From contig NGBS01000007.1 of NCBI GenBank assembly GCA_002245135.1, positions 1 to 64,000 of the forward strand: 64,000 nucleotides of DNA, in the 5' to 3' direction. This stretch comes from Proteromonas lacertae. Lineage: Eukaryota; Sar; Bigyra; Opalinata; Proteromonadidae. This document shows, piece after piece, positions 1 to 39,746 of the stretch; the first letter of the stretch is position 1, and each line of letters begins with the position of its first letter. The translations under genes and the position numbers were made by a program. Below the pieces are notes generated by a model that was given only the letters and a program-made list of their open reading frames with translations, made no database searches and had not been told where the DNA came from.

Positions 1-3000
1 ACTTCATCATCATCAATATATCTACTTGTTAAATTACTAAATTCATCTAAACTACTACCAAATATGAATTCAGGGATTAATAAAACCATTTTTTATTCCT
101 CCATTTGTGTTTATTTCTTGAACTAGCGAATATTCGCGTTAACATTGAGTTTACTTCTACACTTCTAGTTCCTGTTGTATCATGGAAAAATACTAACTTT
201 AATGATTTTGGTCTATATCTTGTGTAATCTTCTTCATCTAATAACCTTGATGATGATGAAGATGTTTCAATTGTCCAATCACATTTATATCCTTCATTCT
301 CAGGGAATATATCATTCCAAGCATCAGCAGCTTCAGGCTGAGATGCATAATCAACCACAGATAAACTAAGATCATTTGACACTTTCACTAAATATATTAT
401 TCTATTGGCAAAACCATCAGTACTCATTTCAATTGTTCCTGATGGACCTACTGATGAGTAACCATACAAAGCGCTTCTAATCTTGACATTATCAAACGAT
501 TTTGTATAAGATGTAATTATATTTGACCATAATGTTACACTTATATATCCATTCTCAGTTTCTGATGTAATAATTGAGTTTTCACCATAACGATCATTCA
601 TCGCTTCAATAAATGATTTACTTGTAGATTTATATGTCATTGTATCAGATGTTTCTAAACCCATTTCTTTAATAAAGGCAGTTAATATATAACTATCAGC
701 TAGACATTTTGCAGGGATATATTCCATTAAATATCTATCTAAAGAAATTGATACAACATATGTTTTTGTCATATTTATATTCTGTTTACACAACCAATTA
801 AACGCTTGAACATTATTTTCTTTAATCACACTTAAAAATATAACTGAATCTTTATCTAAACTTTCAATATCAAAATCATCTGAATATAAGAATCATTTAA
901 ACTACTAAGATTATAAACATGTGTTTGTAATTTTATAGTATCACTCAATATCAACATACTTCTTGAAAACTGAGAACTAAATAGTTCATCATCTTGAATA
1001 ATATATAAATGATTCATATTAGGTAATATATATTTCCAAGCACTTTTCATTAATTGTTCACTAGTAATTTGAGTTGACATCGTATATTTTGGACATGATT
1101 CTGTTGGTGTTTAAACCATTATAGAAGAATAATTTCTTATTATTTTCAAAAATCTCATATACTGAACTACTAATTAATGAATTTCCACCTCCACCAAATA
1201 CTACACTTACTTCAGAAAGTCTACAGAATTCTTCAGCGTAATAAACATATCTTTCTATCTCTGATTGTGCATCTCTTATTAACATTGTAATTTTCCTACC
1301 TATTATTCCGCCACTATTATTAATCTCATCTACAGCTTGGATAATACCTCTTGTTATTGATCTTTCGGTTGTATTGTATTTGCCACTGAATGATGTTAAT
1401 ATACCAATTGTTATTGATGATTCTCTAAATTTATCATAAGCTATATCACCACTTAATTTACATACATATTTTGCATCATTCACCCAATCCTTGTAAGCTT
1501 GAGATTCTATAACTGTAGTAGAACTCATTATCAATTCAAACCCATATTCATCATCATTCTCTATCATTTTTACCAAATAACATATATTGATTTATATAAT
1601 TATCATCTCCCATTGTTAATCTTCCACCACTGGGAGATTTATAATTTAATTCATATAATTTTTTACTCACCAATTGTCCTTTTACACTTTTTACACTTTC
1701 AGCAGCATATATAAATATCTTACTAGATATATAAGCTGTGTACATTACTTCAGTAACAAAATTAGTAACAGATAATATTTCTCTTTTCATTATTTCATTC
1801 TCTGGATTGTCTAAATTAGTAAAATATGTTTCAACTGAATAAAATGGTTTTGCACCTCTATATGCTGCATTTGAAGCAGTATTCAATGAAATTATTGTGT
1901 ATTTATCTCTACTATTACTATCCTTTGTATATTTATCCAATAGTTTATCAACTTGAACATGTATAATAGAATCAGCCAAAAACAATATATAACATCCATA
2001 TGTAGGAGTTGCTGTAACTAATCCTTTCACAATATCTTCAAGTTCTGAGGAAATTGTTGTATCAGAACCATCTTCAGATTAATGCTAATCCACTTGATGA
2101 ATAATCAACTATTCCACCAATAATACTCATGTAACTATTAATATAACTTCCATATTTTACTCCTGCATCACCATTTGCAGTTAAAACGCAATAATGTAAT
2201 GTTTCTGGTTTTTGTTGGTTCAATCAGATAATCAATCACTCTACTTACAAAACTTGGCTCTTTTAACATATAAAACACATTCTTATAGCATTTTTCACCA
2301 CCTGTATAACCAATTTTGGAATAAAAGAATATCTTTCTCTATCAATAATGGACTTAATGAACTAATACAACCATCAGCTGCAGTTGAAAATATTACACCT
2401 TCTTTCACTTGCTTTAAATAATTTGATAATAATTCATAACATACAATATCACTTGATTGAATATCATAGCTTTGTACTGTAACTCTTTTGCCTAATAATC
2501 CATCATTTGTATTTAAAGCATCTAAAACTAATTCAAATACATTCATAACATATTTATCTGTATCTCTTAATCTACCAGATACTGATAAAGCAACAGCTAC
2601 TGTAATAGTTGGAACTACATTACCAGAACCAACAGATGAATCAGTAAAATCACACACTAAACCATTTGTTTCAGGTATATCCCAACTATATGCCAATGGT
2701 TCAAGTATTCTTGTTTGACCATATACATTTGATAAAACATAATTATTACCATCTTTAAGAATTTGCATAACAAAGAATGGTAATGAAAGATGATTATCAG
2801 TAAACATCATTGTAATACCACTACAAGCTTTAAGACTGGCTCTATACAGTTGGTTTGACAATAATTCATTGTTTGTATAATCACCATCTATTTTTGATAC
2901 AGCATTTGACCAATATACTATAGCCAAATATGAACTATGTGCTAATTCATTTCCTTTTATACTTTTACCATAATAATCATCTATATTAGTTCTGAATTTA

Positions 3001-6000
3001 CATTCTGAATTTATTTCGTCATAATATGAACCAGTCAAATAAACATTAACACTTCCTGATAATGTTAAAGAAGGAACTAAATCTCTATCACTTTGAATTG
3101 AAATAATATGAAATCTTTTGTTATTATTCAGTGACAATTTTTGATACTTATCAGCTACTAAACTATCAAAGTAATTGATATAATCAATCGCAGTAACATC
3201 ATCTAATGTTATGATAATTATACATCCATTTTCAATGTGTTTACCTACTATTTCATCTGCATAACTATAAGTTGTACCTTTACCAGATTCTACAAAATCA
3301 TTTCCAATTATTGTATACAACCCTTCATAATTATTAATCAATATCTGATGAATCATTTCATTGGTTTCATCACTTGTTCCTAAGAAATATATTTTCTTAT
3401 CAGATTCAACTTGATCTATAAATGTTGATAATGGTTTTGTAAATAAACTTGGAACTAATCCAGTATAATAGGTATTACTATCACACTCTTGACCTTCAAA
3501 TAATGATGGATACCACAATACTTTTTTAGATTTTCCAGATATTAGCTCTTTATTTATTACATTCTTACAATTTGTATCTGAACAACCAATTATCATTATC
3601 ACATCTTCATCTTTAGCCAATTCTTCACCAATTGATTTAAGATTATTAGAATTTGATGTATCATAAACTGTATAATCTAAATAAGTACCTTTTAAAGTAT
3701 CTCTTTTATTCAAATTCTTAATTGTAGCTATTACAATATCCACTGCATTTAATTCATACTTTTTATTATCACCAGTAATTGAATATAAAAAGGCTATTTT
3801 CTTACTATATCTTGGTATTTTATCACCTCTTATTGTTTTATTATCAACCTTCCATTCACAATAATACAAATTTCCATCATTATTATATTTTGTAGAATAA
3901 GGATTAATATAATTCAATTCATTCAAATGAGTAATTGTTTCTACAGTATGACTGTTGTTGTTTGTATGATAATGAACTTTTACTAAATCACTTATCAATG
4001 ATAATTGATTATTTGTAGTTACTATTGTATCATCAATTATATCACTTAAATTAACATTATGAACAGCATTCAATAATTCTTCAAATGAATATGGAACAAA
4101 TCCTTCTTCACCTGTATCTTCAGTAAAATTTATAGAATTTAAGGCTTTAGCAGCAATTATCACAGATAATAAACCTGAAGAGGATGGTTCTTTATCAATA
4201 AATGTATATTTTTCTTTTGCTATATTATAGACTTCTTGATTCTTAAAATGTGACTTTTGAAGTGTTTCTACAAAATAATGTCCATCAAACAACTCCCAAT
4301 ATTTATTATCATCAATTTCAGTAAGTTTTGTATTAAATGATACGACTGTATATGTATTAGAATCATAATTACTCTCTTTCATTTGTAATAATAAATCTTT
4401 TCCTGCTGATCCTTCTAACAATGATACAATCAATCCTGACTTCATATTACTCACAATGATATTCATCACTACATCCATTTTATAATTTGAAGTTGGTAAT
4501 CTTATCAAATTCTTTACTATTATTCCTTTCTCTTTTAGAAAATATTGAAGATTCAATGCATTTTCATAATCTTTTAAAGTGTCTGAATATAATACTATTA
4601 TATCATCAAATGATTTTTCAGATAAATAAAAATATGCAATTATTGTTATATATTCAGTAAATGGATTTCTCATATATATTACATTCTCACTACATTCATA
4701 TCCTTCAAATGCATATGGAAAAAATAATAACAATTCATTATCATGTAAATCATCTAATACATATCTTCTCATTTTTGAATTTGATAATCCAAATACCACT
4801 CTGTTTCCTGTATCGTTCACAGCTTTTCTAATGAACTCTTTTGCTATATCATTATCAGATTCTGTATTTTGAATTACTGGTAAAATCATTTTGTTGTGTA
4901 TTCCATTATAATGATCATTTACATAATCAACTGCAGCTAAATAACTAAGAAGCAAAGCTGATGAAGAAAATGAAAAAGTTCCTGTAAAGGATATTAAAAA
5001 GTAGAATCTAATTGAATCATAAGTGATTTCATTACCAGTGCCATTGAACCTTGAACAAATTTTATACTCTTCTCTATTAAAATGATTTCTATATACTTCA
5101 GCTTCCCAATTATTCGTAACATTTGATACTACATTGGATGATCCATCTTTATTCTTTTGTAAGACAACAAATGGAAATGGAATACTTGTATCAGTTTTTG
5201 ACATTGTTGTTATGCCAAACGAAGTAGTTAATGAATGATTGCTTAAATATTTGTAAATTCCTAAATTACTAAAATCTACAGTATCAGTATATTCATCAAC
5301 TAATAATTCATAGGCAATGATTGCTCTTGTTTCTACTTTTGGTATTGAATATGATTCACCAAACATATTGATTCCCATATTATATATCTTCGTAGCTGTA
5401 TTTTTATCAGTGTAACATGATGCTAACGAATACTGACCTACATTTCTTACTTTATCAACATCTGGGAATATACTCCAACTAAATATTGGGAAATCTTTAT
5501 GAGCATCTTCTAAACTAGTGTAAACAGTACCGAATATCTTTTGATATTTAATGAAGAATAATTCATAACTTTTCTGGTTTGTTAAATAATTTAAAAATAC
5601 ACCGCCATTGGGTATGTATAATCTATATGAGCTAACAAAATCAGTTATTGAATCTTCTAAAGAATCAGTATCAGATTCATTCACAACTTTATGTTTCTTA
5701 AGATAACCACCTAAACTGGAAATTGTATCTTTTATCATAGTCAATTCATTCTCTGATGTACTGACACTTGTAATTAACATCACATCTGTTGTGTAATGAG
5801 TTAATATATAGGCAATATAAGGGATAATCTTTTGATTTGGAAATGAACCTAATTCCATTCTATAGACATTACAATAATGAATAAAAATATACATTCTATT
5901 ATCACATATATCTCCACTTTTATCAATTATTGATATTAATAGCAAATCTTGTTTTTCTGTTAAGAATTGTTTTTGTTTCTCTAATGAACATGAGGTTATT

Positions 6001-9000
6001 ACTACTGTTGTTATATTTTCAGGATCAAAATCATCACAATAATATTTTGTTAATACCTAAATAAGCAATATAAACAATAAATATCTATATACAATATTAT
6101 AATCTCTTTCATTATAATTGGCTAAATACAAATCCAACAAAAACAGAATTGATTCCTCATTACTATTAATAACTAAATTTATGTTTAATAATTCAGAGGC
6201 AGTTTCTTCTAATTCACATGTTGAAGTATCTCCATCATTTCTCTATAACAAATAAAAACAAAAAATATATATACATAAGCTAAAAATGAAGTCAAAGTCA
6301 TTGGGTTTATGGTTTTCAACAATTTATAGTATTCTCCATTTTGAATTTTTACTAACACATAAGAATTAGAACAAATCATATCATCTCTTACTTTTATTTC
6401 TCCAACTGGTAAATTCAAAACTAAACCTTTAATTTGCCTTTTTAGTTCATCAAAAGTTTCATCTTTTGCTTTTGCAAATGCATTTTTCAGAATCATTAAA
6501 GCAGTATAAATGTTTAAAGTGTGTTCATTCAAAAGATCATCATTATCACCAAATCTTTCAGTAAATTCTGATATAAAATTTTCATTTTCACTATTCGTTT
6601 GACTATCTTTTGTATATGAAACAAAGAATGCATGTCCTTCCCATATTTCTGGATCTACCCATTCAATTAATACATCTAAACTAATAACGGTAAATTTATC
6701 AGATTTCATATTCTTTTCATTCAACATTTCTATAAAATCAGTAGTTTCACTTCCTAACACAGTAAATATCATCAACCTATCAGTGATAATATCTTTCATT
6801 GAATCAGTTATATTATCAAACGAATAAGTAGAATTCAAATAATATCTAGAAGTCTTTAAATCTCTCATTGTATCAGCTGTAATAGCTATTGATTCTCCAA
6901 CACCATGACAAAATGGATTATCACACATAACAATAGCTAATGTCTTTGATTGCGAAAATTGCCAAACAGTTGCTATTGAAGCAAATGCATAATGATTAGG
7001 AAATCTTCCAACTTGAACAATATTTTCATAACATCTCATTCCTTCACTTGGATGAATACTAAAGAGCAATTTATCATGTTTCTTTAATATTGGAGCAAGA
7101 ACATCTCTTTGTCCATTTGTGGTTGTACCAAAATAAGCTAATAAGTTTGGATCATCACTATTCTTTTCTACATATTCTTTCATATCATCAATGGCTGAAA
7201 ATATTTTGGTGGACATTTTCAATAATCTTCCATTTATTCCTTCTTTAATATTAATATAGTCATTTATTATATTATTATAAAGTAAATAATAATTTAAATA
7301 ATGTTGGAAATATGAATCAGTGACATATAAGAAAATAATGTGATAATATGGATAAGATTTACTTACTCCTTCTAACCATTCACATTTAGTACTTACATCA
7401 ATAAATGCATTAGTATACATAACATAAGATGATGATAATTCAACATCTATTCTCTTACTTGCATTATTAACTCTACCAATGTGAAGTTGAGATGAATCTG
7501 TACCTTGCGAGTTCCATTCAACATTCCCACCTGGACCTAACATTGCTGTAGTATATATAATCATTTGGTTAATCTTATCATGATCTAAACTTCTTGCTAA
7601 TCGAACTGCATATAATAACAGTCTAATATTTATGTAACTAAATCCCATTGTTGATGTTATATGTTGTTCTTCATCATAATCTAAATCAAATAGTTCTTGT
7701 TGAAATGTTTTACTTTCTGTTGTATTTAATTCATCAAAATAATATCCAATCACATATGAACCATCATACTATTATAATACATAACAAATACAATATATAA
7801 TACATTTTCCCATTCATTATTGATAATATTTTCATCCAATAGAAATGACAAAACTGGATATGTTTCAGTATCTTTAACAACAGAATGATAATATTTATAA
7901 AACATCTTTTGATAATATCTTTCAACTAAATTTACAACTAAACATCCTTCAGGTAATCCATTCCTTTCAGAACATTGACTTAATATTTTTGTACAAACAT
8001 TCAAAGCTTGTTCTTCATTTACAGCTTTCATTTGTTCATAAACAATCTCCTGAAATGAATCATATTCATTTGTTATATTAATTATAGTGTTTAATGCGTT
8101 TGCTGAGAATAAAGAGTCACTATAAACAATGAACAATCTTTTAGTTGTAACAATATTTGTAAACTCTTGAAGGATGAACTTCCACATTGAATAAATACTT
8201 AATCCTTAAGAAAGAAATTAAAGAAAAATACTTTGCTGTATATTATAAAAAAAATGATATTGGAATCACATTCTTTTTACAGTAATTACTTGCATCAGGT
8301 TTTATTCGAACATATGTATAATCTTTGATATTATTACTTTCAATCATCTCTAAGAAGTTTGTAGCATCTTCAATAGAAGAAGTACTAAACATTGCAATTA
8401 AATTAAACTGTGTTCTGTAATATAAATATTCTTCAAACACTTTTTCAGTACCAACTGATAAATCAATATATAATATTTCTAACCTTCTATTCATAATATA
8501 TCCCTATTAAAGAATAACAATAAAATAATATACTTCCTTGTTAATACTATTCTTTGCTGCTTGAAATGCATATCCTATATTATTATCAGAAATTGTCAAT
8601 TCTTTGATTCTTTCATCTTCACTAAAGAAATTTCTATAAGAAAATAATATAATATTCATTGTATCAGGTTTCATCGATATATTGGATTTTAATTGATTAC
8701 ATATATATTCTTTTGGTAATCCATCAATATATACATAAGATACACCAATTATAGGCTTGAAAGCTTTACTATTCTTCATACTACCTCCTGTATCTATTTC
8801 TCCAAAATCAACTATTCCAATTAATCTATTACCTTCATTTAAACCAACTTCTATTGTTTGATCACCTGCTGTATTTTTATAAATAGTAATATAGTTATTA
8901 TTTCTATATGTATAATACAATATATCACTTCCACTTGAGAAATCATTCAATATTTCTTTTCCTATTGTATAATATAATCGACACATTTCATATAATTGAA

Positions 9001-9899
9001 TAGCAGATAAACTAAAATCTTTATTTGCTAAAGTATCAACAGGATCTTGTGCATTACCTATATCAGTAATTAACTCTGATGGTAGTTCTGTATTTTCACT
9101 AAGAAACCTTGATCCTTTTGCTTCAGATGTTGATAATAATAAATCTCTTGGAACTGTTGGCATATTGATTACAACCACAGTTTGTGAAGATGGAGGTGTG
9201 TAACTATTCCATTCTTTTACTAACTCGACATCAGTATAATAGTTCAATATTGTAACTGCAGATATTTTTGGATTGTTGTTAAAATATTTGTTAATGTCGT
9301 CAAAAAGTTGATTTACTTCAGTTGAAGGTTTATCAAATACAATTATTGGTGTAAGTCTTAAAAAATTTAATACTCTATTCAAATCATTAATCAAGCTTCC
9401 TAATTCCACTTTTTTTGTTGAATCATATGCTATTATTATATTTTGAAGTTGATTTATTTTTCCATTCATTGCTAAATAATATATACAACTATTTATATAT
9501 ACAGAGTAAAATAGACTCTGAAATATCATATCCAAATATGATATTTGAGTAACAAGTGGTATTGGGATATGCTACAGCGTTCCATACATATATACCATAT
9601 TCTACTGCTATTTTATTTATCATATCAAAATCTGCATCTGGTATATAAGCAAAAACAGTGTCAATCTTCTTTGACTGCTGTTCTTTGAATAAAGTTGATA
9701 GTGTACTTTCAGATATATCTATTATTTCCTTATTCAGATTTAAATTGTCAGATTTTGAGATATAGTTGATTAAATACCTCATGTCATCTGGTACATCCTT
9801 ATCAACAACAAAAAGCCTATTTACATCATCTGACAATGCAACAGAAAAATAACATAGAAATATAAAGTAAGATATAACACCAATTTTGTGTAACGACAT
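1..9899 (-). CDS. Giant tandem Venus-flytrap (ANF-receptor-like) surface receptor, partial at left edge, with frame breaks
   Basis: The ATG at 9899 opens a protein with a signal peptide (hydrophobic core VISYFIFLCYFSVAL, then SDDVN). It reads leftward through introns at 9472-9502, 8504-8533, 8205-8231, 7769-7803, 6243-6274 and 6057-6092 (27-36 nt each). The product is a chain of roughly 390-residue periplasmic-binding-protein type I modules. Module starts lie near 9820, 8690, 7370, 6180, 5010, 3810, 2610, 1420 and 200. Recurring signatures are a GG(I/V)xG(K/R) turn after the first helix (for example near 1310), an (E)xC..N..Y segment, and a C-(D/E/N)(W/F) linker between modules. The C-terminus lies outside the window; by analogy with the divergent neighbour a 7TM domain is expected, which is inference. 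Frame is lost by one extra base near 8250 (T8 run), 2322, 2202, 2083, 1575, 1118, 132 and 92, and by one missing base near 870. The run 2400-8200 is clean. It may be a pseudogene, or a good gene with assembly errors. Confidence 0.85.
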
Positions 9900-10291
9900 T
9901 TTTGAAATTGAAAATAATATTTGGCTTGAAGAATAACAAAAATGACATTACTATTCTATGGTATTATTTTATCATTAGTAATTCACAGGTATATGCAATA
10001 TAACATATTGCAAATTATATAACAAAATTATAATTCTATTCATTCTATAAATAGTTGTAGTGTTAAAAATAGGCAATTACTTTATCAGACAAGCTGTATA
10101 TTCTTTTTATATTTTTTCTAACCCTATTGACATACATTTTTTATATACAATGTTTAATAGTAAAGAAAATGATCTACAATTTCTATGTAATTTTTATTTC
10201 ATTCTATGTATATAAAAGTTAATTTGCAGCAATACCTAATTACTATAATTTGAATTATATACTCACTAATCAACTTACTAAAAAAATAAAA
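9900..10291. promoter_or_regulatory. Divergent promoter region between the two giant receptor genes
   Basis: This 392-bp AT-rich interval separates the start codons of two head-to-head genes of the same architecture, so it must hold both promoters. I see no ORF or RNA gene in it. One GGCTTGAA element lies at 9923-9930, about 24 bp upstream of the minus-strand ATG and in reverse orientation relative to that gene. A shared promoter would allow co-expression of the pair, which is inference. Confidence 0.6.
9923..9930 (+). promoter_or_regulatory. GGCTTGAA element
   Basis: One copy of the recurring (A/G)GCTTGA(T/A) element seen near many start codons in this window. Here it lies 24 bp from the start codon of the minus-strand giant receptor and points away from it. 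Function is inferred only from recurrence. Confidence 0.35.
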
Positions 10292-13200
10292 ATGTTTCAA
10301 AAACATATTCGTTGTGTGATGTTGTATATAGAAACTATTTTTGAAAATCTAATGAATAATAGATATTTATATTTGTTTGTAATATTTTGTGTGGAAGTTG
10401 TGGGTATCAAGATTGGTTACATTATTAAAGACGGTTCTTCTTCTGAATTTGAATTTCTTTCTGCATATATATTAAAACTTAACAGTAATCAAAGAGAACA
10501 AATAGAATTAATAAAAATAGATAAAAATAGTAATGATTATATCAAAATCTTGAAAGATCCTGATCTGTCTGTTGCCACATCGTTATGTCAAGAAAATGTG
10601 GATGATAATATGAAAGTTGACCTCGTTAATAACAATGTGGTGTTATGGTGTGCAGATTTAGCAGTAGTTGGTGATTGTAGTCGAGATATGATTAATGGAA
10701 TGTCAGTTACACCATCTTTAGAGCAATGTATAATTATTTGTATAATTTAATAGCCATGTACATACTTGCAACGCAATATCCTCTTAATTTTGCTATTATA
10801 TTGGATAAGGCATTAGTAGTATCACCATTTTACTATGAAAGAATAATTCACTTAATAAAATTCTACAATGGTTCAGTTGTTTTTGACATTCATAATACAA
10901 CATTAACTGCAGACAATTTAGCCAAATACGAAGATAAGTTAAAAGAATATAAAGACGAAGGAGTAACAACTATTTTATTGCACAACAAAATGGATAAAAT
11001 AATGGAAATATTTAATCAAAGAACAGATAAATATTTAGCTCCAAAATATCCTATGTTATTATTAGAGGGTGGATTAACATATGCTGAAATTAGTGCTGAT
11101 AGTAGATATAATAGTAATTATGATGTTGGTAATTTATATATTCGATCTTATCATTCTGAAATTAATAATGAAAAGAATACTCTTTATAAACAAATTCATA
11201 GTAGTGATCCATCTTTTGCTAGTTTAACTGAAAGTAAAGGTGCAGTTTTGTATATATTTATTATTATTATTATTTATAGAACTGGTGTTGTTGATTTAAT
11301 AGGTTATGCAGCTGATCATGTTCCTACAAGTAAGATATACACAATGTTTACTTATTTGTATGATAAACCGTTTGAATTTGCAGGTGGCAATATCATTTTA
11401 AGAACTAATCATATGATGACTTCAACTCATTATATTGGCATTGTCACGAAAGATACAACTAGTGGTGATGTTAAATTAGTATATAAACATATAATTGAAC
11501 CAGATGTTACATTTGAACCAACACAATTTGAGAATGAAATTGTTGAAGTTGGTTGTAATTTTATCAATAACCCTGTAGATGGATCTTATAAACCTGATTA
11601 TTTACCTATTACATTCATGTTAGACATGAGTTTATATCAATCTAAAGTAGTTTATCAATTTATGAAAATGTATTTTGATAATATCAATGCAAATAAGCCA
11701 ATATTAGATAAGATATTATTCCCACTGATGTATAACATACTTGATGGAGCTGAAGCAATTAATAAGAAATTATTAGAAATGATTGACAAATATGACGCTA
11801 GAACAATATTCTTAATGACTTCAGAAGAAGATAGAGTTCAGTTATACACATTTTTAAAGGATTATGATACAGAAATATTCTACATTGGTCCAAATGAAGC
11901 TGAGATTTGTACAAGTGATTTGATATTTGGAGATTTTGTAAATGAAGTTTATGTTGAAGAAATATATAAATATGTTAGGAATATTGGTAAAATAAGAATT
12001 GCTTTAATTGGTAGTCCAATGTCTTATGGTACTCATACAAGGACATTAATAAAAGAATATTTCAATGAACAAGGAATGGATATAAAGATTGTATCTGAAC
12101 AGAATATTCAAAAACCAACAGAATTAGAAGCAAATGTGACTGTTGATTCGTTTATTGAATTGTATGGTTTAGTGAATGATACAGTTGTTATTATTACAGC
12201 AGAAAATGAGTATTTACCATATTTATATAAAGCATTTTATCAAAAAGGTATTAAAACTGCAAATGGTTTTACATTTATTTCATTGAATTTAGATCAATTG
12301 ATTGTAGATGGAGCAGGTAGTGAAAATGTATATAGAAATTTATTATTATTATTATTATATAGTTTAATGGAACAATGTTTATCAGCTACAGTAGTAATGA
12401 AATGAACTCGCAATCATTAGATATATTCTATAAATCATTTTCTGATTTAACTGGAAAAGAAGTACCATTTACACAAACTATTGCTTTTATTTTCAATTTA
12501 GTTTCTATAATTACTGATGCAATATTGTCATCTTCATCTGTTTCACCTGAGTATTATAGAGAATATTTGTATCATACAATCTTAAAAGAACCTTCATATG
12601 GTAAATATGAGATATATTCGAATGGTATTGCTAGAGGTGAAATACATATGTTTCAATTAGATGAGAATAATTTAGCTGAAATTGTTTATTCACCTAATTT
12701 TGTAAGTGAAAGTTATGCATTTGTGAATAAGTCTAAAACTTGTTCTTTTAGTAATGGAATAATGAATGAAGGATATACTGATATTTATTATATTGGAATT
12801 ATCTATAATTTGAATTCAAAAATAGATATTACTACTGTTGATTCGTTAAGTTTAGTTTTAGAATTAATCAATTTAGATGGTGGTTTAAATGGAAGAATTG
12901 TATTACCAGCAACACTGAAATGGATAGTAGGAGATAATGAAGATATGAAGAAAGAAATGGAACATCTATTCAATACAACAAATCCATTATTTGTAGTTGG
13001 AACTGATGATGACAATTCAAAGAAAGTATTATCTCCAATTCTAGAAAAATATGATAAATTATGTTTTTCATTGTTAATTAGTGGAGGTGAAACTGAACAT
13101 CCGAACATAATTCAAATGAATGCAATTCCTAATCAATTATTTTCACTACCATTAATGTATTTTTTACAGAAAACACCAAAATATATCATATTATATGATT

Positions 13201-16200
13201 CATCAGTTGATTATTCAAAGAAATTATATGATTATTTGATTCTATATGTTGAAAGTATTAAACAGAATCCTGCCTTTGTTGTTGATGTAGAAAGTAACAA
13301 AACTTATGATAAGATTGTTGATGATATTGAGGGAATTGTAGGAAATGATGAAGCTTTTATTATTGCATTTATTGATCAACAGACTGAACCATTTCTTACT
13401 GAATTTGATTCAAAAGGATTATCTAAAGATCAAATATCAATTATTCTAATGGATTTAACAACAAGAGTCTATTTAAATGCAAACAATTTGACTGTATTTT
13501 ATGGTTGCTATTTTTTCACATCTTATTCAACAGAAGGAACTTCGTTATTAAATACTGCTTTAATCCAAACAGTAACAAACTATAAAGGAAATCCATTGCA
13601 ATTATTGGATGATGTAACAATGGCATTTTACAACTCATATTTATTTATGAAAGCAGCAATAGGAGTTAATTCAAATGATTTGAGCAGTTATACAATAAAG
13701 TCATATTTCTATTCGCATCCTGTTGATACTCCTGTTGGACCATTGAATTTAGAAACATCGAATTATGTTGATATTTATCCACACATATTGTTATATTTGA
13801 ATGATAGTCAACCTATTATAGCTAAAATGACTTCTGCTGTATCTCCACAAGTGTATTATAATCTATTACATGATGATCAATTTATATCAACAGATTATTC
13901 TAAGAATCCACCAGATATTCAAACAAAAATTAATTATATTGGATTAGCTTTTATGATGAATATCGATGATCGAGTTCATTATCATGCTTATATTGATTTT
14001 GCCTTAGCAATTCAAGAAATTGAGAAATATAATAGTGAGGGAGGAATAAAAGAATACAAAATTAGATATGAATTATATAATTGTCCTACTACAGAAGAAA
14101 AAGCTGCTGGTTTGTTGATAAATATGAAAGTTAGAGGGTTTACTTACATAATTGGTGGTTGTGGACCAGAAACAAAACAGCTTATCCAAAAATCAATTAA
14201 ATCTATCGATATGATTTTATTTTATACCGAACTTAATCCTGGTAAAGAATGTTTACAAAATATTATTTATACAACACTTTCTCCATATCAAGAGATATAT
14301 CCTATTGCTCTTAGATTGTTATATGAAAGAGTAACAAATCCAATATTCGTATATGAAGATTCTTCATATTTAGCTTCAAGAGTTGAATTAATGAGATCTA
14401 TATACACTGGATTTGATGTAAATATAGAATTAGAATTTGCAATAAATACTGAGAATTACCAACAATCTATTATAGATTCAGTAGAACAGTTGAGGAAAAG
14501 AATAGTAATGACATCACATATAATATTGTTATTACAATATGAAAGAGTTGATTATTTCCTTGAAATGTTTTATAAGAAAGTATGTGATATAAATGGAATG
14601 AGTTTAGATGATTGTATTAATACTTATTCAATTTATATTATTGATGAAAGCCAAAGTGTTTATAATGGAGAATATGCAAGAGGAAGAACTGTTTATTCTG
14701 CCTTTATGAATGATGGTTCTGAAGATTTCTTGAAATTCTATGAAGATTCACATAATGTTGGTGGTTCAAAGTTTAATCCTAATTTTTATGATTCATTTTC
14801 TTCTATTGAAACTGATTTTCTGTTGACTTCGATGAAGAATGCATTATCTGTGTCATTATCAGATATAAGAAAACAAATTTATGTAACATCCATGAATTCT
14901 GCAGTTGGTTTAGTTGAAATAGATTCAGGTAATCATGTGATTGATGCTCTATCGATTGGTTATGTTCAGAAAGATGGAACAGTTAAATATCAAGAGACTT
15001 TGACAAAAACATGGGAAACAAATACATATAGAACTACTTTGAATATGAAGGAATATGAATATTGTGATTGGAATCCATCAACTCCTACAGAAGAACAAGG
15101 AAGTGAAAAGATACAAGAAGTTGTAAATATCGGAGTTGTTATACCAATTAGTTCATATTTTATTGAAGAAGGAATTTCATTTATTGCTTCATTATATGCT
15201 GGTTCTGTTGATATTAATAAAAATGGAGGAATAGAAGGAAAGAGATTGAATTTTATATTCTTCTCTGATGGAAATGATCCAGAGATAGCAGCTGATAATA
15301 TGAAGAAATATATTGATGAATATGGAATAAGTGCATTTGTTGGTGGATGGACTACTGAAGTAAGAAAAAGACTAGGTGAAGTTGCTGTTGAAAAGAATGT
15401 TTATATGTTTTATCCACCTGATTATACTGGTGATGTTTGCCAATTTAATGGAATATTCTTTGGTGCTCCACCAGTTTTATATTACATTTTATATCCTTGG
15501 ATTCTAGCTCATAAAATAGGTAAATTGATTTTGATCTATTCAACCACTGAGTATTCTACAACATTTGCTAATTCTTTACAGACTGAATTAGGTTATTATG
15601 CTACTCAATTTGATTATATTTATTCAATTCCACCTGAAAATAGTGATGTCTCTTCTATTATAGAAATTATAAAAACTGTAGCTCCAGAAGGAGCACTTAA
15701 TTATCTCAATATTAGATGGTGATTCAGCAATTAATTTACTCTCACAAATGTATGATGCAGAAATGTCATCTGAAAAGTATGTTGTAATGACTAGAGGTAT
15801 TGTTAGAAAAAAAGTAAATGAAATTGGTATAAAAGCAGCTGGACATTATAAAATTGATTCTTTAGATTTAAATTATGATAATCAAGAAGTACAAAAAATA
15901 ATTGCTAATGAAGTTGAACATTTATCAAATTATTTTACCTATTTGACTGATATTACACCAGTTATGGCAAGAGGTTATTCAATGGTATTGTTCTTAAAGG
16001 AAGTGTTAAGACAAATGATTGTCTACAATGATGATAATATAGGACATTATATTTATAATACAACAGTAATGTCTACTATTGGAAGTTTAGAAATAAATGA
16101 AAATAATAATGTTAGAGTTCCAATAATTATTCATCAAATGACTTATAAAAATGGTAATGTTGAATTTAAACAAACATATGAAAGTAGTTTAATTCAAAGT

Positions 16201-19200
16201 GATCCTTATTATTCAATCTATAGAGATGATACAACAATGAAGAAATGTGTAGCTGAATATAATCAATTATTGGATGTAAAAGTAATGAAATTTGGTCTAT
16301 TCTTCTCCACTACTGGTTCATTAGCTGAAGTTCATAGACCTGTAATTTATGGTGCAATTATTGCTATTCAAGAAATATTAGATGCAGGAGGTGTATTAGG
16401 AATATTACCAGTGGTTGTATTAACTGATTATGCATCTGATGCTTCATTAATTGATGGATTAGCTGAAGATTTATTCTCTGATCCTTTAGTATCTGTCGTT
16501 ATTGGATGTTATGATACTGATTGTAGAGATATATTAGAACCATATGCTAAACCATATGATGCTATTTATTTCTATCCAAGAAAATCTGTTGGTGAACAAT
16601 GTGATAAATATACTTACTACATTGGTCCAGCTCCAAATCAATATGTTGCACAGGTATTGGAATATTTAATTACACTATCAGTCGATAAGAGTTTAGTGAT
16701 GATAAGAACATCTGATGATGATGCAAATACATTATCAAGAATAGTGAAATATGAAGCTGATGGTTTATTTGTAGTTAAAGATAATATAATGATTAATACA
16801 ACTAATCCAATCACAAATGATTTGATTATTCGAATTAAAGGTATGTTACCAATTGGTGGTGTTATAATGTTAATGATAAACGATCAACAAGATTTACAGA
16901 CATTTTTAAGAACTTATAATAATTTAGGAATTGATCCAACACATTATCCAATCGTTGATGTTATGTCTGAAGTGGATCATTATGAACAGTTTGATGCACA
17001 TTTAAGAGCTAATGTCTACTTATTAAATAGTTATTTTTATGATATTAATAATGAAGCAAATACAAATTTCTTAAAAAGATCAAAAGATTATACAACAATT
17101 GAAAAACCAACAGCTGGTACAAATGCAGCGTATGGTGCAGTACAATTTCTTCTACAAGCACTGAAAGATACTGGTGAAGTGAATATTACAGAGATAAGGA
17201 TCAGGTTAATGACAACATCAATCACAGATGGAACAGGTGTTATTACGTTAAGTGAAGCTCATTACCCAAATCTACCAATATTTATAGCAAAATATAACTC
17301 AGATGGAAGTGATATAAAGACAGTTTCAGAGAATTTCAATTTACAATCACCTCAAGCATGGAATTGGGATTTAACAGAAAGTTATGGAAAGAAATGCAAT
17401 TGGTTACCTGAAAAAGAAGATAGTTTCTATGATGTTAATGCTGTTAGATTAGTTTTAATTGCTACAATCACTGGAGGATTATCTGAAGCTGCATTAGGTG
17501 CTGTTGATGCTTTTAAATTAGCAACCAATGAATTGAATGGTAAAGGAGGAGTAAGAGGATATACAATTAAACCAGAAATTGTTGATACACAATCAAATTC
17601 AGATGAATGTGTTAGTTTATTAACAAATTATGTGAATAATTATAAACCACCAGCTATATTCTTCGTAGGAAATGAAAAATGTAGAAATTCTGTTCAAAAT
17701 TTATTGAAGGAAAATAATGTTATGTTATTCCATTTCTTCCAACAAGATTTAGGTTATTGTAATGAAAATGTGATGATTGCATGTCACCATATATCTTTGG
17801 ATAAACCATTGATAAATGCAGTTCGAAATAGATTATACAATGAAATATTAATTATAGCTGGTGATAGTTATTTTGAAGATAGTGGTGAATATATCAAAAC
17901 ACTATTAGATGAAACAAAAGTGCCAAATACTTACTTTAGTAGTGTTGATGAAAATGTGGCAAATAAGATTAAAGAATGGTATGATAAGAATGTTACAAAT
18001 GTTGCAATTATCTACAGAGGTTTCTTTGATGGTTTTGATTTTATAGAAAAGAATTTGACATATTATAATTTAACTGAACCAAGAGTCAGATTAATAGTAA
18101 TAGAACCAACCAGTACAATTTATCTATCAGAATATAGAAATTATGAAGTGTTTGAAGCATATAGATCAAGTGATGATTTTGAAGAGAATGATGCATTTGC
18201 AGATAAGATGAATGCAAGAATAAATAAAGCAACAACCACTGTTACTGATATTACATCAGCTTTATATTCGAGTGTGTTGTTATGGGCAAATTCAGCTGAA
18301 GAATCAGATAGTTTTTTACCTTCAAAAGTAAGAGTTAAGATTAATACAGTTGTGTTTAAAAGTCCAGAAGGTGAAGTGAAATTTGGTGTTAATAATTATT
18401 TAACAAGAACAATTGCAGATTCTTATATAGATGAAAATGGTGAGAATGAATTATTACATTACACTCAATATATGCATACTCCAGATGCATTTGGTAATGA
18501 TTTAAATGGTGGAATATTTAAATTGTGTAACTTTGATGATATTACAATAGAAGATGGAAGAGAAGTAAATACATATGTGATTGGTATTATTTTATCATTT
18601 ACTGGAGCATTAAGAGAAAGTGAAAGTTCAGTTTTTGATGCAATTTTATCAGCTATTATCTATATGAACAATCAAGATAAAGTATTAGGATATTATTTGA
18701 ATTATAAAGTGTATGATATTGCTTCAGATCCAAACAATTATGCTATTCAATTAAAGAAAGCATTTGATACAGATGGAATAAAATATATATTTGGAGGTGT
18801 TAATCCTGATCATTATGATTATATAGCCAATTATATGAATGGAAGATCTGAATATTTCTTTTTCTGTGGTTATACTTATAGTATAACTTGTCCATCCCAT
18901 GTTATATCTGCCCAATTATTACCATCTCAAATAGCTGAAAGCGCAATTAGAAAAGCGATGGAAGAAGCAACATCAATGGTTCTTATCTATTCGTCAAGTA
19001 ATTTAACATCAACAGTAAATGAATTTATATCATCTCGAATGGGTAATTTGAATTTGTTGTTGATGGGTAATATTCTATATGACGATAGTTCAAATGCTCA
19101 ACTAATCGAAAGATTATCAATAGCTAATAGTGGTGGTTATATAATAGCTACATTAGATTCAAAAGAGAAATATATATCATTATATAAAGATTTATGCTCA

Positions 19201-22005
19201 TTTGGAATGCTTCCTCCAAATTGGGTTGTTTTGGCAACAATGTTTGATGAGAATATATTATATGAAGTAGATACAAAGTGTTTGAATGGAAATGAAGTAA
19301 TTGGATCATATTTTGAATCAGTTGGTAATTCTGAAACTAATAGTTTTTCAGTTCCATATTTATCTTCCATATTTAATGAAGAAATTCATATTAATATTGG
19401 CAGTAATAAGTATATAAGATCAGAATATGAATCAGCCTATTCTTTAATGCAATATTGGAAAACACTCATAACAAATGCCAATAGTTTTGATATATCTACC
19501 TTTGAACTATTATATGATTATTATGTAGATACACCATCAACATCAGTTGAATTAGAAGAGAATAATTTCATGAAAAGAATAGTTTATAGTGGTAAAATCA
19601 ACAATAGAGTAATCAGTATTAATTGGATGCCTACTTCATACATTGAGCCAATTCTTTATAATCAATGGGAAGGAGATTTGAGAGGATATACTTGTGATTG
19701 GAATAATGAACTTAGTAATACAAGGAGACAATTGCAAGATAATGGTAATACTGGTGATAATACAAATAATAAAATTGGTCCAATGCATAACAATAATCCA
19801 ATTCATGTTGCATTTATACATGAAAGTGATATTGGTACTCAAAGTGAGAAGTATAATCTATTGATTCAGAATATAGCAATTGATGAAATTAATGATGGAA
19901 ATGGTATTTTAGGTAGATTATTAATTCCAGATCATTATTTTGTAATGTCTTCCAAAGTATATTCACAATTAAGAACAATCATATCTGACACTGAGAATTT
20001 GAAAATGATATTTGGTTGTATGTCACCTAAATGTAGAACTGAAGCAGAAAGATATTTAGAAGCCATTAATAGTAATGTATTGTTTGATTATTTAGGAAGA
20101 GATGATGGTTTTGTATGTAGTACATATATTGTTACAACAGGATTAACAATCAATCAAAAGACAGAACCAACATTAGATTATATACATTCAATGGGATTAT
20201 TGGATTTAATGGTAATAGGTAATAGTGAAAATTCAACAGTAATAATGTCTGAAGTAGTAGAAAGACAAGCAGTGAAATTAGGAATAAATTTCTTAGGATC
20301 ACAATTATTTTCACCATATAATCCAGTGGAACTATCAACAATTATTAATGTATTAGAAGAAATGTTTTCTAAAGCTGAAAGATTTATAATAATTGATTTA
20401 TTTGCTGGAGGTGAACAAGAGAAATTCTTAACAGAATACTTCGCTGCTACTACCATAAATAGAGATTCAATAACATTATTCTTGTTGAATTATGATGCTC
20501 ATGATGTATCTTCATCAAACATTAACTCTTTATCTGGTTCATATATTGTTTCAAGTTATAATGCTGTGATAAAAAGTACAACTGCTGGAGCATTTTCAAC
20601 ATCAGTTCAACAGATATATCAGAATGCAATTACATTAGGTGAAATATTAGAAACAAGTTACAGTTCAATATACTTATGGAAAGCTGCAGTAGAATATGCT
20701 AAAAGTAATGGTGATTCTAATGATGAATGGCCTGATTATAGATATGTAAGATTAAGTATGAAATATGTGAGTTATGATGGTCCAGGTGGTACAATGACAA
20801 TGCAATATAACAATCATGCAAAGAGACAGATTTACATATTTAGAATGTCAGGAACAAATCGTATTCAAGTATTTCCAAATCAAGGAAGAGCTGCTTCATT
20901 TGATGCAAAATTGACATATATGAGTGATGAAGATTGTAATTTAGGTAAGAATATCGTTTTATATGAGTTTAACTCTGCTTTACAATGGACTGTAATTGTA
21001 TTTATGATTGTTGTAATGCTTTGTGCAATTGGTATAACAGGGATTATATTAATGTTTAGAACATTCTAAAAGTAATCCAATAGTGCTTCACCATTATTTT
21101 TATGTTATACACTTTTAGGTGTGATTTTACTAAGTGTTAGTGGTATGATATTTACATTATATCCGAATGATGTAGTTTGTGCAATGAGAGTATGGTGGTT
21201 AGCTTTATCAGTTGATTTCTTATTCAGTATATTGTTCTGTAAAGCATGGAGAATTCATAAATTATTCAATAACAAAGAAATGAAAAGGGTAAAAATTTCA
21301 AATATGATGTTAGTTAAAATTATAGCAATTATCGAATTAGTTCAAGCATTATATTTGATGATTTGGTGGTTAGTTGATAGAGCAGAATATACTGAAACTT
21401 TTAGTGTTGATTATTCCAATTATTTAGATGATTATTACATTAGAGAATGCACAGCCAATGATATATTCACTTATATCGAAATTGTTGGAGTTGTATTACT
21501 ATTTTTATGGGGAGCTAAATTAGCTTGGGATACAAGAAAAGCATCATCAGAGTTTAATGAATCAATCAGTTTAGCATCCACAATTGTGTTGATGATTATT
21601 TTAGGTATATTGGAAATTCCATTGAATGTATTAATGGAGAAACAACCTGATACATTGTTAATGTTAAGAGGTTTAGGTGTAGAATTAGGATCATTTGCAA
21701 CTTTGATTTTACAATTTGCATCAAAGTTAACATACTTATGGGTGAATGTAGTTCAAAATAGTACAACATTAGGTGGATCTTCAAGCTTATCATCAGCCAA
21801 TTCAAAGAGATCAAGAAGTTTAGCAAGGAAAGGAGCAACTAGAGGAAGATTTTCTGTAAAACCTGATGTATTTAATTGTGGAGATATTGGTTTATGTACT
21901 TTATCAATGCCTGATTTGTTTTATATACTTGGTGAAAGTAATTCTATGATGAGATCATCATCTCAAATGTCTGGAAGACATACTTCAACATCAAGGATGG
22001 GTTAG
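10292..22005 (+). CDS. Giant class C GPCR with nine tandem Venus-flytrap domains and a 7TM domain
   Basis: Reading starts at ATG 10292; an in-frame ATG at 10352 would give a more classical signal peptide (MNNRYLYLFVIFCVEVVG). Introns of 26, 30 and 35 nt lie at 10728-10753, 11250-11279 and 12328-12362. The ectodomain is nine VFT/ANF-receptor modules beginning near 10410, 11590, 12800, 13930, 15125, 16280, 17440, 18570 and 19800, about 1.15-1.2 kb apart, separated by linkers with C-(D/N/S)(W/F). TM1 is at about 20,985-21,060 and the other six helices at 21,095-21,770, with a class C-like SPLFLCYTLLG at TM2 and an MRVWWLALSVDFLF TM3. A Ser/Arg-rich cytoplasmic tail follows. Animal and Dictyostelium class C receptors normally carry one VFT, so about 3,850 residues with nine is exceptional. 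Frame breaks: one extra base near 15,697, one extra near 21,066 and one missing near 21,091; the last two compensate each other and restore the family motif NPIV in the TM1-TM2 loop. It is likely a plasma-membrane receptor; ligand unknown. Confidence 0.9.
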
Positions 22006-22284: not shown

Positions 22285-23169
22285 CTAAGTTAACAAGAGT
22301 GGTAGAAATATTTCATTTGTAAATGATTTACAATATGGAGGGGTTTTCACTAACTCTATATTACTGACTATTCGATTCCACATCATTTCATATACTCTTC
22401 CACATACATATCCAGGATCATTTCTAATATACGATTTATTATAATTATTAACAGACCATTGCTCCATATTATTCAAAAGTGAAATATATTCATCTTTAGA
22501 ACGAATCTTCAAAGAGTTTGCATTAACAAAGAATGAACTACAACACGGATAAGAAAATTTTGTAGGTATTTCTGAAGGAATAGAAGTGTTCTTAAATAAA
22601 TCAACAAAAATACTTGATAATACATTACCTTTTAATGTTGGACAATAATTCCAAACACATTCAATACCTCCATATAATTCTTTTGATAAATAATTACTAT
22701 AAGAATTTAACAGTTCTCCAATCATTCTTTCTATGGGTTGAATATAATGCCAAGATTTTGAATGTCCATGAATAAAAATATAATTTTCAGCTAATGGCAC
22801 GTCATAATTGTCAATAATAAATTTTATGTAAGGGCCAGACTCTTTACATTGATAGTTCTTTTTTTCTTTATCACATGATAATTTAATCACTGGAAGGTTT
22901 AAGTAATTTAATTTGAAAACCTTATCATCACATGATGAATATAGAATCATCACTCTATGCTTGGGTTTTACGGATTGTGTTGTGTTTATCTGATTCAATG
23001 TATCCTGTAACTGTGTATTATTTTGTAAATAAAATACTTCGTTTATACTACCACTTGTCCTGTTATACTTCATCTTCTTATAATGAGCTGAATACCCTTC
23101 TTTAAACAAATAATATGAAAGAATTATAAATGAAATAATAATAACTATTGAAAACAACACAAAATTCAT
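22285..23169 (-). CDS. DUF3431-like type II membrane protein
   Basis: Single-exon gene of 294 codons. The N-terminus is a signal-anchor (FVLFSIVIIISFIILSYYLF, residues about 3-22) preceded by no basic cluster, so the bulk is probably lumenal or extracellular. The core contains YIKFIIDNYD, then YIFIHGHSKSWH around residue 140, the His-rich signature I associate with the DUF3431 family, which is common in fungi and has no established activity. About ten cysteines after residue 90 suggest disulfides. The conserved HGHxxSWH could be metal-binding or catalytic, which is inference. The family assignment rests on this motif and the overall layout only. Confidence 0.65.
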   Translation of the reverse strand: MNFVLFSIVIIISFIILSYYLFKEGYSAHYKKMKYNRTSGSINEVFYLQNNTQLQDTLNQINTTQSVKPKHRVMILYSSCDDKVFKLNYLNLPVIKLSCDKEKKNYQCKESGPYIKFIIDNYDVPLAENYIFIHGHSKSWHYIQPIERMIGELLNSYSNYLSKELYGGIECVWNYCPTLKGNVLSSIFVDLFKNTSIPSEIPTKFSYPCCSSFFVNANSLKIRSKDEYISLLNNMEQWSVNNYNKSYIRNDPGYVCGRVYEMMWNRIVSNIELVKTPPYCKSFTNEIFLPLLLT

Positions 23170-23296
23170 AGTAGCTATTAAATAAATTAATAAATGTACA
23201 ATCGTCTAAACAACCATCGATTGTTTATATTTTATTTATTTCATTAAAAACAACAATAAATACAAAAAATAAGTAAATAATAATAACAATAATAAT

Positions 23297-37051: not shown

Positions 37052-38209
37052 TCATATATTAATAACATTCAAAATGTTTTCTAATCTAGTAATATTCACT
37101 ATAAACATTCCATTTTTCATACTTTCATATGTTCCATAATACTCCAATCCCATACTTCTGGCCAATGACATATAACACAAATTACCACTTAAAAACTCCA
37201 CTATTTTACAGTTTTCAGATAGAATAGCATTAGACAAACCAGCACCATGAGGAGTAACAATCAATTTTGCATATTTGAAATAGTTTAACGTGTCTTGGAA
37301 TTTAGTATTTGGATAAAATATAGCCATTTTCTTATTACTATATCTGTTCTTTATCGTTGTTTCCACTTCTTTAAAATTAATAATATCTCTAGTACCAAAT
37401 CTTTTTATTAATATTATATCATATTCTGGTTTAGATGTTATTCTACTCCTTAAATAATTTCTTATTGATTGTATATAAATTATTGGAGGAGTTGAACCAC
37501 ATCCTCCTTTCTCTAATACTAATAATCTCTTCGCATAAATATTACCAGATAGAATTCTAGAATCATTAAATCCAAGAAAATGTAAATAGTTAAGACTAGC
37601 TGCTCTATAAGTATGTATTTTTATAGATGGATCCTTCAGTAATTCTGGGATATAATACCCTATTTTTGATAGACATTCAACAATAGAATGAAACACAGCA
37701 TTTCCCCAGTGGTGAGATATTGATATTACTTTATCGAACTGAAAATGTTGAGGCTTTTTGTATAACTTTTTTGGTAGCTCTGAACATTTGCATCCTCCCA
37801 CTGTTGTTAAATCCCAACAATTAGAATGAATACTACCATCTTGTGCTACTATTACATCTTTAAACCCAAAAGCTTTTAGATTAAATGTTTGATTTACTAG
37901 TCTAACACTATTTCCTATATTACCTCTGATCTGTGTATTAGATCTAATTAATTGAAGTGATGATTCCTCCACTTGAATCCTTAAATTATTAGACTGGAAA
38001 TGAAATACGTTTTTTACTCCTATATTACTGAACTTAAGACATGCTATGCTAGAAACATTGCTGCATTGAATCAATTTCATTTGCTCCAACTGTTTAAAAG
38101 ATTCTCCTATAAATGTAGTAGGGTTTATTTTTGGAACTTTCTTTACCTTTTTCTTTTTGTAACTATACAAAAAGTACATTACACATACAAACACCATCCA
38201 TTCCAACAT
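37052..38209 (-). CDS. GT61/DUF563-like glycosyltransferase, type II membrane
   Basis: Uninterrupted 385-codon gene. Short cytoplasmic end, signal-anchor MVFVCVMYFLYSY, then basic KKKKVKK, typical of Golgi or ER type II transferases. The catalytic region has HHWGNAVFHSIVECLSKIGY and the C-terminal TPHGAGLSNAILSENCKIVEF, the DUF563/GT61 signature (G-H-G-A/G-x-x-N). A cysteine-rich middle (CWDLTTVGGCKC) suggests disulfides. Donor and acceptor cannot be told from sequence; eukaryotic members include EOGT and plant xylosyltransferases. Its start is 23-66 bp from CDC7 on the other strand. A second member follows at 39,747. Confidence 0.78.
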   Translation of the reverse strand: MLEWMVFVCVMYFLYSYKKKKVKKVPKINPTTFIGESFKQLEQMKLIQCSNVSSIACLKFSNIGVKNVFHFQSNNLRIQVEESSLQLIRSNTQIRGNIGNSVRLVNQTFNLKAFGFKDVIVAQDGSIHSNCWDLTTVGGCKCSELPKKLYKKPQHFQFDKVISISHHWGNAVFHSIVECLSKIGYYIPELLKDPSIKIHTYRAASLNYLHFLGFNDSRILSGNIYAKRLLVLEKGGCGSTPPIIYIQSIRNYLRSRITSKPEYDIILIKRFGTRDIINFKEVETTIKNRYSNKKMAIFYPNTKFQDTLNYFKYAKLIVTPHGAGLSNAILSENCKIVEFLSGNLCYMSLARSMGLEYYGTYESMKNGMFIVNITRLENILNVINI

Positions 38210-38232
38210 TATAACAAATCAAATATGGTTTG

Positions 38233-39715: not shown

Positions 39716-39723
39716 GGCTTGAT
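39716..39723 (+). promoter_or_regulatory. GGCTTGAT element
   Basis: Within AGCTTGGCTTGATT, 31 bp upstream of the ATG of the second GT61-like gene. Same motif and spacing range as at several other genes here. Confidence 0.45.
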
Positions 39724-39746
39724 TCTATAAAAACATCAAAAAATCA

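Follow-up and report, generated by a model that had tools for sequence, protein, structure and literature searches.

A gene on the forward strand (10292-22005) of the window, which is the whole 64,000-nucleotide stretch analysed here (Proteromonas lacertae, contig NGBS01000007.1, positions 1 to 64,000), was found to encode nine Venus-flytrap (VFT) modules followed by one class C seven-transmembrane (7TM) domain in a protein of about 3,850 residues. The initial annotation had proposed such a gene, and it was confirmed by nine modules located with a family profile hidden Markov model (HMM), by a Pfam match to 7tm_3 and by splice joints. The same annotation spoke of a single class C G-protein-coupled receptor (GPCR). 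It is indeed one gene, but not a lone oddity: it belongs to a large family in the host genome, and the nine-module plan recurs in other assemblies.

Identity of the modules and the membrane domain

The profile HMM was built from the family itself and seeded with one module of the window gene. It placed the nine modules ∼1.1-1.2 kb apart and gave no hit in 244 shuffled or reversed control sequences. The first part of the gene holds five of them, of which the fifth is split by a frame break, and the second part holds the remainder of the fifth plus four. Module 1 gave the weakest match (E about 1e-7), and exon 1 taken by itself matched no Pfam family. Peripla_BP_5 (PF13433) matched six stretches of the frame 15682-21066 (E 2e-111) and three stretches of the frame 12363-15719 (E 9.8e-48). 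The 7tm_3 domain (PF00003) was matched with an E value of 4.9e-33; its score was 115.3 bits (cut-off 33.5) for the part after the last frame break, and 126 bits when that break was read through. The Pfam check suggested at the outset was therefore borne out for the membrane domain and for type I periplasmic binding protein (PBP) modules (Peripla_BP_5/6, PF13433/PF13458), both families above cut-off. The assignment of the modules to the animal-type family PF01094 (ANF_receptor) did not hold, since its best score in the gene, 22.4 bits, was below the cut-off of 25.4.

The nearest solved structures to the VFT modules were the urea-binding protein UrtA (7s6e, 7s6f and 8hic), 8tg1 and the amide sensor AmiC (1pea); module 6, for example, matched 7s6e with E 5.3e-18 and 1pea with 7.7e-15. 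In an NCBIfam scan, all six of the window modules scanned were called UrtA (TIGR03407), each far below the cut-off (best 121.1 versus 492.75 bits). The 7TM domain matched GABA-B2 best, GABA-B1 next and then mGluRs, and the best 15 of its 54 Protein Data Bank (PDB) matches were GABA-B chains (7ca3 chain B, E 2.1e-16). Module 9 ends at 20919 and the PF00003 match starts at 20968, which leaves only 16 residues between them. The cysteine-rich domain NCD3G, a feature of mGluR, CaSR and T1R, was absent from the Pfam matches of the five frame pieces at E 0.01. Because one VFT per chain is usual for class C receptors and not defining, membership of class C stands, as a variant, for a gene with nine.

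Exons, introns and frame breaks

The gene is made up of five stop-to-stop frame pieces with four breaks between them. Two of the four frame changes are due to introns 1 and 3 (26 and 35 bases); intron 2 (30 bases) is in frame, but all three are of the form GTATA..TAG, and it is probably spliced because its sequence style matches that of the other two. Removal of the introns gave a continuous protein from the leader through the fifth module. The start codon is more likely the ATG at 10352 than position 10292, with a signal-peptide-like sequence, MNNRYLYLFVIFCVEVVG, judged by eye. The features of the gene, all on the forward strand, are as follows.

10292..10727, +, exon 1: leader and start of VFT module 1 (reading frame, splice joint)
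10728..10753, +, intron 1, 26 bases, GTATA..TAG
10754..11249, +, exon 2: VFT module 1
11250..11279, +, intron 2, 30 bases, in frame, probably spliced
11280..12327, +, exon 3: end of VFT module 1 and most of module 2
12328..12362, +, intron 3, 35 bases; length change of 12 bases in a TTA repeat relative to the paralogue L021 (below)
12363..12725, +, end of VFT module 2 (family HMM)
12777..13859, +, VFT module 3 (family HMM)
13929..15032, +, VFT module 4 (family HMM)
15114..16212, +, VFT module 5 (family HMM), with a one-base frame break near 15690 where the homologue P0001 is continuous
16276..17364, +, VFT module 6, UrtA-like (family HMM; PDB 7s6e)
17434..18495, +, VFT module 7 (family HMM)
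18565..19662, +, VFT module 8 (family HMM)
19792..20919, +, VFT module 9, membrane-adjacent (family HMM)
20923..21933, +, short linker, class C 7TM domain and start of the tail; PF00003 match at 20968-21726, local break near 21060-21080
21934..22005, +, C-terminal tail, with the stop codon TAG at 22003-22005

The other two breaks were resolved by comparison with the nearest paralogue, L021 (contig C713), which is 96.8% identical in DNA over window 12034-21926 (9.9 kb). Its open frame of 3,219 residues spans both break sites and holds modules 3-9 and the 7TM domain in one frame. Over the 9.9 kb the two copies differ in length at six places. One is the TTA repeat of intron 3 and another is a whole codon; the remaining four are single bases, each of them extra in the window and located at one of the two break sites. 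The break near 15,690 is a one-base shift, across which P0001 is continuous (41% identical before the break and 56% after it), and that near 21,060-21,080 introduces two in-frame stops where the 7TM domain has its first intracellular loop. From these alignments, the two breaks look like neither introns nor gene boundaries. Sequencing or assembly error and very recent decay of the window copy both fit, and the nine-VFT architecture is independent of which of them is the cause. It had been considered at first that the frame breaks might be real stops parting the ectodomain from the 7TM domain; the breaks are there, but two of them are introns and the other two are open in L021.

Programmed frameshifting, reassigned stop codons and very short introns at the two sites were rejected, because paralogues read the same sites plainly. 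It was also considered whether L021 is an allele and not a paralogue. This is not favoured: the similarity ends at 21926, yet L005, from the same locus, extends 1.3 kb further.

The receptor family in the host genome

A six-frame search of the 50.2 Mb host genome gave 132 matches to PF00003, a number that includes exon pieces, degenerate copies and duplicate contigs. A hand count placed 32 of them within stop-free frames of at least 2,000 residues and 7 within frames of at least 3,000. For PF13433, 112 scored matches were obtained from 683 first-look candidates. The paralogues were sampled as 23 stretches, 20 around the best 7TM matches and three with long frames; stretches of 10 kb extend back to module 2 at best. 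In one paralogue, C283, whose stretch was extended by 1.35 kb, a single open frame of 3,666 residues begins late in module 1 and continues through modules 2-9 into the 7TM domain. C283 is about 20% identical to L021 in the last modules and the 7TM domain.

Genes for G-protein signalling were found as well. There were 12 G-alpha matches, five of them above 200 bits and three weak ones that also match Arf, together with 85 RGS and 13 cyclase matches. Some open frames carry several RGS matches in tandem: five on C371 (939 aa), four on C633 (569 aa) and three on C85 (510 aa). Tandem RGS proteins thus occur alongside few G-alpha genes.

Homologues in other assemblies

Protein searches returned four full-length or nearly full-length homologues, P0003 (3,886 aa), P0005 (3,909 aa), P0007 (4,080 aa) and P0008 (3,745 aa), each with nine VFT modules and a 7TM domain; these are predicted proteins, known from protein sequence alone. 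P0001 and the shorter P0004 were further homologues. Nine modules and a 7TM domain were therefore counted in six of the six proteins that could be counted near full length (the window gene, C283 and these four). The count has flaws: the first part of module 1 is absent in P0008 and C283, and several modules were matched in two pieces (3 and 9 of P0005, 8 and 9 of P0007, 2 of C283). It is also biased, because the protein searches admit only candidates of 0.55-1.75 times the query length, a filter that arrays of one to four modules would not pass.

Two other proteins carry modules of this kind. P0002 (1009 aa) has one module of the receptor's VFT type at residues 614-975, and its remaining Pfam accessions are presumably TPR and AAA-type domains. 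P0006, from run SRR837773, has several UrtA-like modules and Ephrin_rec_like repeats (PF07699) with no listed PF00003, and is possibly a second kind of multi-VFT membrane protein. The available part of one paper gives SRR837773 as a run of the dinoflagellate Pfiesteria (PMC3712967); the number also occurs in a trypanosomatid paper.

Phylogeny of the modules

A maximum-likelihood tree was computed for 80 modules, one of them bacterial and the others from the window gene, the homologues P0003, P0005, P0007 and P0008, and five paralogue stretches out of the 23. At positions 3-9, the modules of the window gene, L021, L024, L038 and P0003 formed position-specific clades with 99-100% ultrafast bootstrap. 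Modules 1 and 2 of the window gene paired with modules 1 and 2 of P0003 at the same level of support, although the pairing of module 1 was flagged as long branches meeting, and the inner forks at positions 7 and 9 were weak. Since the modules group by position across three paralogues and P0003, the array is older than the divergence of these genes. The modules of P0005, P0007 and P0008 clustered more loosely, with the bacterial P0002 module inside their group and the ninth modules apart. Judged from the tree, nine modules may be common to all these proteins by descent or may have been reached twice.

Motif retention and conservation along the chain

Retention of UrtA motifs was scored as 47 letters in six UrtA stretches, which were chosen after the P0005-type relatives had been viewed. 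In P0005, P0007 and P0008, 21 of the 24 modules at positions 1-8 keep 34-42 of the 47 letters and are 41-52% identical to UrtA, whereas the ninth modules have a whole-module identity to UrtA of 20-23%. For P0007, modules 1-8 keep 35-42 letters and module 9 keeps 12. For P0005, seven of modules 1-8 keep 34-40, module 3 keeps 12 and module 9 keeps 10. For P0008, the values are 34-41 in modules 1-3 and 5-7, 28 in module 4, 21 in module 8 and 14 in module 9. The modules of the window family retain 5-18 of the 47 letters, module 5 being the least drifted.

Identity between receptors peaked in modules 8-9 and the 7TM domain in seven of eight per-module pairwise comparisons, although the rise was not strictly steady. 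Between the window gene and L024 it was 41, 35, 35, 52, 60, 61 and 71% for modules 3-9 and 84% for the 7TM domain; between the window gene and P0003 it was 24% in module 1, 41% in module 9 and 51% in the 7TM domain, with dips between. The eighth comparison, with L021, was near-identical throughout and lowest in module 4 (84%). The ratio of nonsynonymous to synonymous rates (dN/dS) between the window gene and L021 was calculated to be 0.26 over 3,164 codons, with 0.33 for the segment that runs from the last part of module 2 into the beginning of module 5 and 0.19 onward to module 9, and there was no nonsynonymous change in the 215 7TM codons compared. These codon comparisons showed the receptor to be under purifying selection. 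The synonymous rate (dS) relative to L021 (window 12363-21730) is 0.12 in the 5' part and drops to 0.02 in the 7TM part, suggesting gene conversion of receptor 3' ends.

Proposed mechanism and alternative readings

One gene, nine UrtA-type VFT modules, a GABA-B-type 7TM domain, position-specific modules and a conservation that is highest at and in the membrane are what was observed. The reading that we moderately favour is a class C receptor of GABA-B type with an array of nine UrtA/AmiC-type modules, in which distal modules sense and module 9 couples. In such a receptor the distal modules would close upon binding small solutes (amides, urea, amino acids or related compounds), which may differ between paralogues, and the closure would be passed down the chain to module 9. 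Module 9, the UrtA motifs of which are lost in the three distant relatives, would act as a non-binding coupler that moves the 7TM domain and activates a G protein. In GABA-B receptors labour is divided between two chains, the GABA-B2 flytrap coupling for GABA-B1; the array would place a similar division within one chain, with module 9 in the role of the GABA-B2 flytrap. A wider proposal, that these proteins form a distinct ancient receptor class with eight sensors and a ligand-free ninth coupler, present in at least two far-apart lineages and enlarged in this protist to a combinatorial system for sensing nutrients, is put forward only tentatively. The initial annotation had offered sensing of several ligands, avidity, an intramolecular stack replacing dimerisation, or adhesion, and this interpretation as a whole is partly supported. 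The data favour a division of labour, with variable distal modules and conserved proximal modules and 7TM domain, over pure adhesion; they decide neither for one ligand nor for many.

Several observations weigh against the sensor-coupler reading. For every module of the window protein, ligand binding is at most putative. The motif count was not blind, because the stretches were picked after the relatives had been seen; module 3 of P0005 is as degenerate as module 9; and module 9 is not specially degenerate in the window lineage, because all modules there have drifted from UrtA. The divergent paralogues L037 and L039 break the position pattern, with ninth modules in the position-4 clade on long branches, and they pair together at positions 6, 8 and 9. 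The rise in 3' identity between recent paralogues could partly reflect gene conversion, although the same rise holds relative to the foreign P0003. Finally, the window copy has its two local frame breaks.

Those breaks would also be expected if the window copy were a decaying pseudogene within a functional family, with out-of-frame single bases at two spots and two in-frame stops in the 7TM part. However, the four departures are all single extra bases, mostly in A runs and three of them within about 20 bases; no further frame change occurs in 9.9 kb, the dN/dS relative to L021 is low as given above, and assembly error would explain the breaks equally. Decay of this copy is considered unlikely, though it deserves some weight. 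A comparable, rather low probability is given to an array built for avidity, in which many copies of one site for a single ligand such as urea or an amide raise sensitivity. P0007 would suit such an array, as its modules 1-8 share 44-58% mutual identity and keep most of the UrtA letters. In the window protein, by contrast, local alignments gave no more than 18-30% identity for 34 of the 36 module pairs, and the module signatures are position-specific and common to paralogues; different jobs per module therefore fit better than one.

It is less probable still, and doubtful on several grounds, that the modules are a long adhesion or spacer stalk that has lost solute binding. That the window lineage has lost UrtA motif letters would agree with a stalk, but position-specific conservation across the paralogues and one foreign gene, purifying selection, the GABA-B-type 7TM domain and the G-protein genes of the genome speak against it. 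That several separate genes or an assembly join were misread as one, as the frame breaks might suggest, is hardly credible and already contradicted at the sequence level by the genomic open frames of L021 (modules 3-9 and 7TM) and C283 (modules 2-9 and 7TM), and by the predicted proteins P0003, P0005, P0007 and P0008 (module 1 shortened in the last), which hold nine modules and a 7TM domain.

Neighbouring genes and other observations

A second multi-VFT gene lies head to head with the receptor gene and begins at about 9.9 kb:

1..9947, -, second multi-VFT gene, cut at the contig end (window base 1); seven modules matched, some in pieces

Close copies of it exist, because its module at 2688-3800 scored 103.3 bits, like modules on contigs C1106 (103.3) and C842 (103.1), each of which is then followed by a 7TM match. 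On the other side, a DUF3431 gene (22288-23205, -) adjoins the receptor, and two Glyco_transf_61 genes lie near each other at 37055-38218 (-) and 39723-41174 (+). These DUF3431 and Glyco_transf_61 neighbours had raised the suspicion of a fungal host, but a fragment of EF-1alpha aligned 12 residues shorter than mammalian chains and 10 shorter than yeast chains and so lacks an insertion typical of opisthokonts; the host is probably not a member of that group. Among other markers, uL3 was closest to chains of Tetrahymena and plants, CK1 to a plant-type chain and NDUFV2 to the human one. Pelomyxa and Anaeramoeba were considered as hosts too and found no confirmation in the available parts of the literature. 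Elsewhere in the host genome, equal-scoring inverted matches were seen on C1171 (149811-150560, +, and 153784-154533, -) and C116 (10715-11350, -, and 15886-16521, +). These pairs, a few kb apart, resemble inverted duplications or palindromic assembly joins.

Comparison with known systems

It had been stated at first that no receptor of this architecture was described, and this agrees with the literature searched on VFT arrays and on large non-animal class C families, where no such receptor was found, subscription literature lying mostly outside that search. A search pairing the two Pfam names returned no papers, and the available parts of PMC10445921, PMC3727952 and PMC12716839 make no mention of VFT arrays. 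An array of nine, recurring at that number in distant proteins and built of modules that differ by position, would put to the test the idea of allosteric signals travelling through a single chain, and would show what the dimer is needed for. It would bear on the relation between GABA-B receptors of animals and the nutrient-binding domains of bacteria, and would offer a natural scaffold in which one 7TM domain serves many sensor modules.

Class C receptors are generally understood to have one flytrap per chain and to work in dimers. The metazoan GABA-B receptor (GB1/GB2) resembles the window receptor in its 7TM domain, the nearest by sequence, in the short linker between VFT and 7TM and in that no nine-cysteine domain was found; it has, however, one VFT per chain in a two-chain heterodimer, whereas the window gene has nine in one chain, and the GABA-B VFT is of another PBP subtype than the window modules. 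UrtA and AmiC of bacteria are the nearest solved relatives of the modules, which score far below the UrtA cut-off, but they are single soluble or lipid-anchored domains with no 7TM domain.

Among non-animal receptors, large class C families with bacterial-type binding domains are described, in the available parts of the sources, for anaerobic gut fungi and Allomyces, with N-termini of 200-1600 and 57-1667 residues (PMC5168858, PMC3251606); the gut-fungus receptors carry type II PBP domains there, in contrast to the type I modules of the window. Diatom class C candidates, from the accessible portion of the paper, have a 7TM with a PBP domain, and some have ABC-transporter-like N-termini (PMC3727952). 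The Grl receptors of Dictyostelium and Physarum form a protist class C family with 17 members in D. discoideum and 37 in Physarum; as far as the available text goes, their N-termini contain ANF, BMP or no recognised domain (PMC10445921), whereas the window gene carries an array of nine VFT modules.

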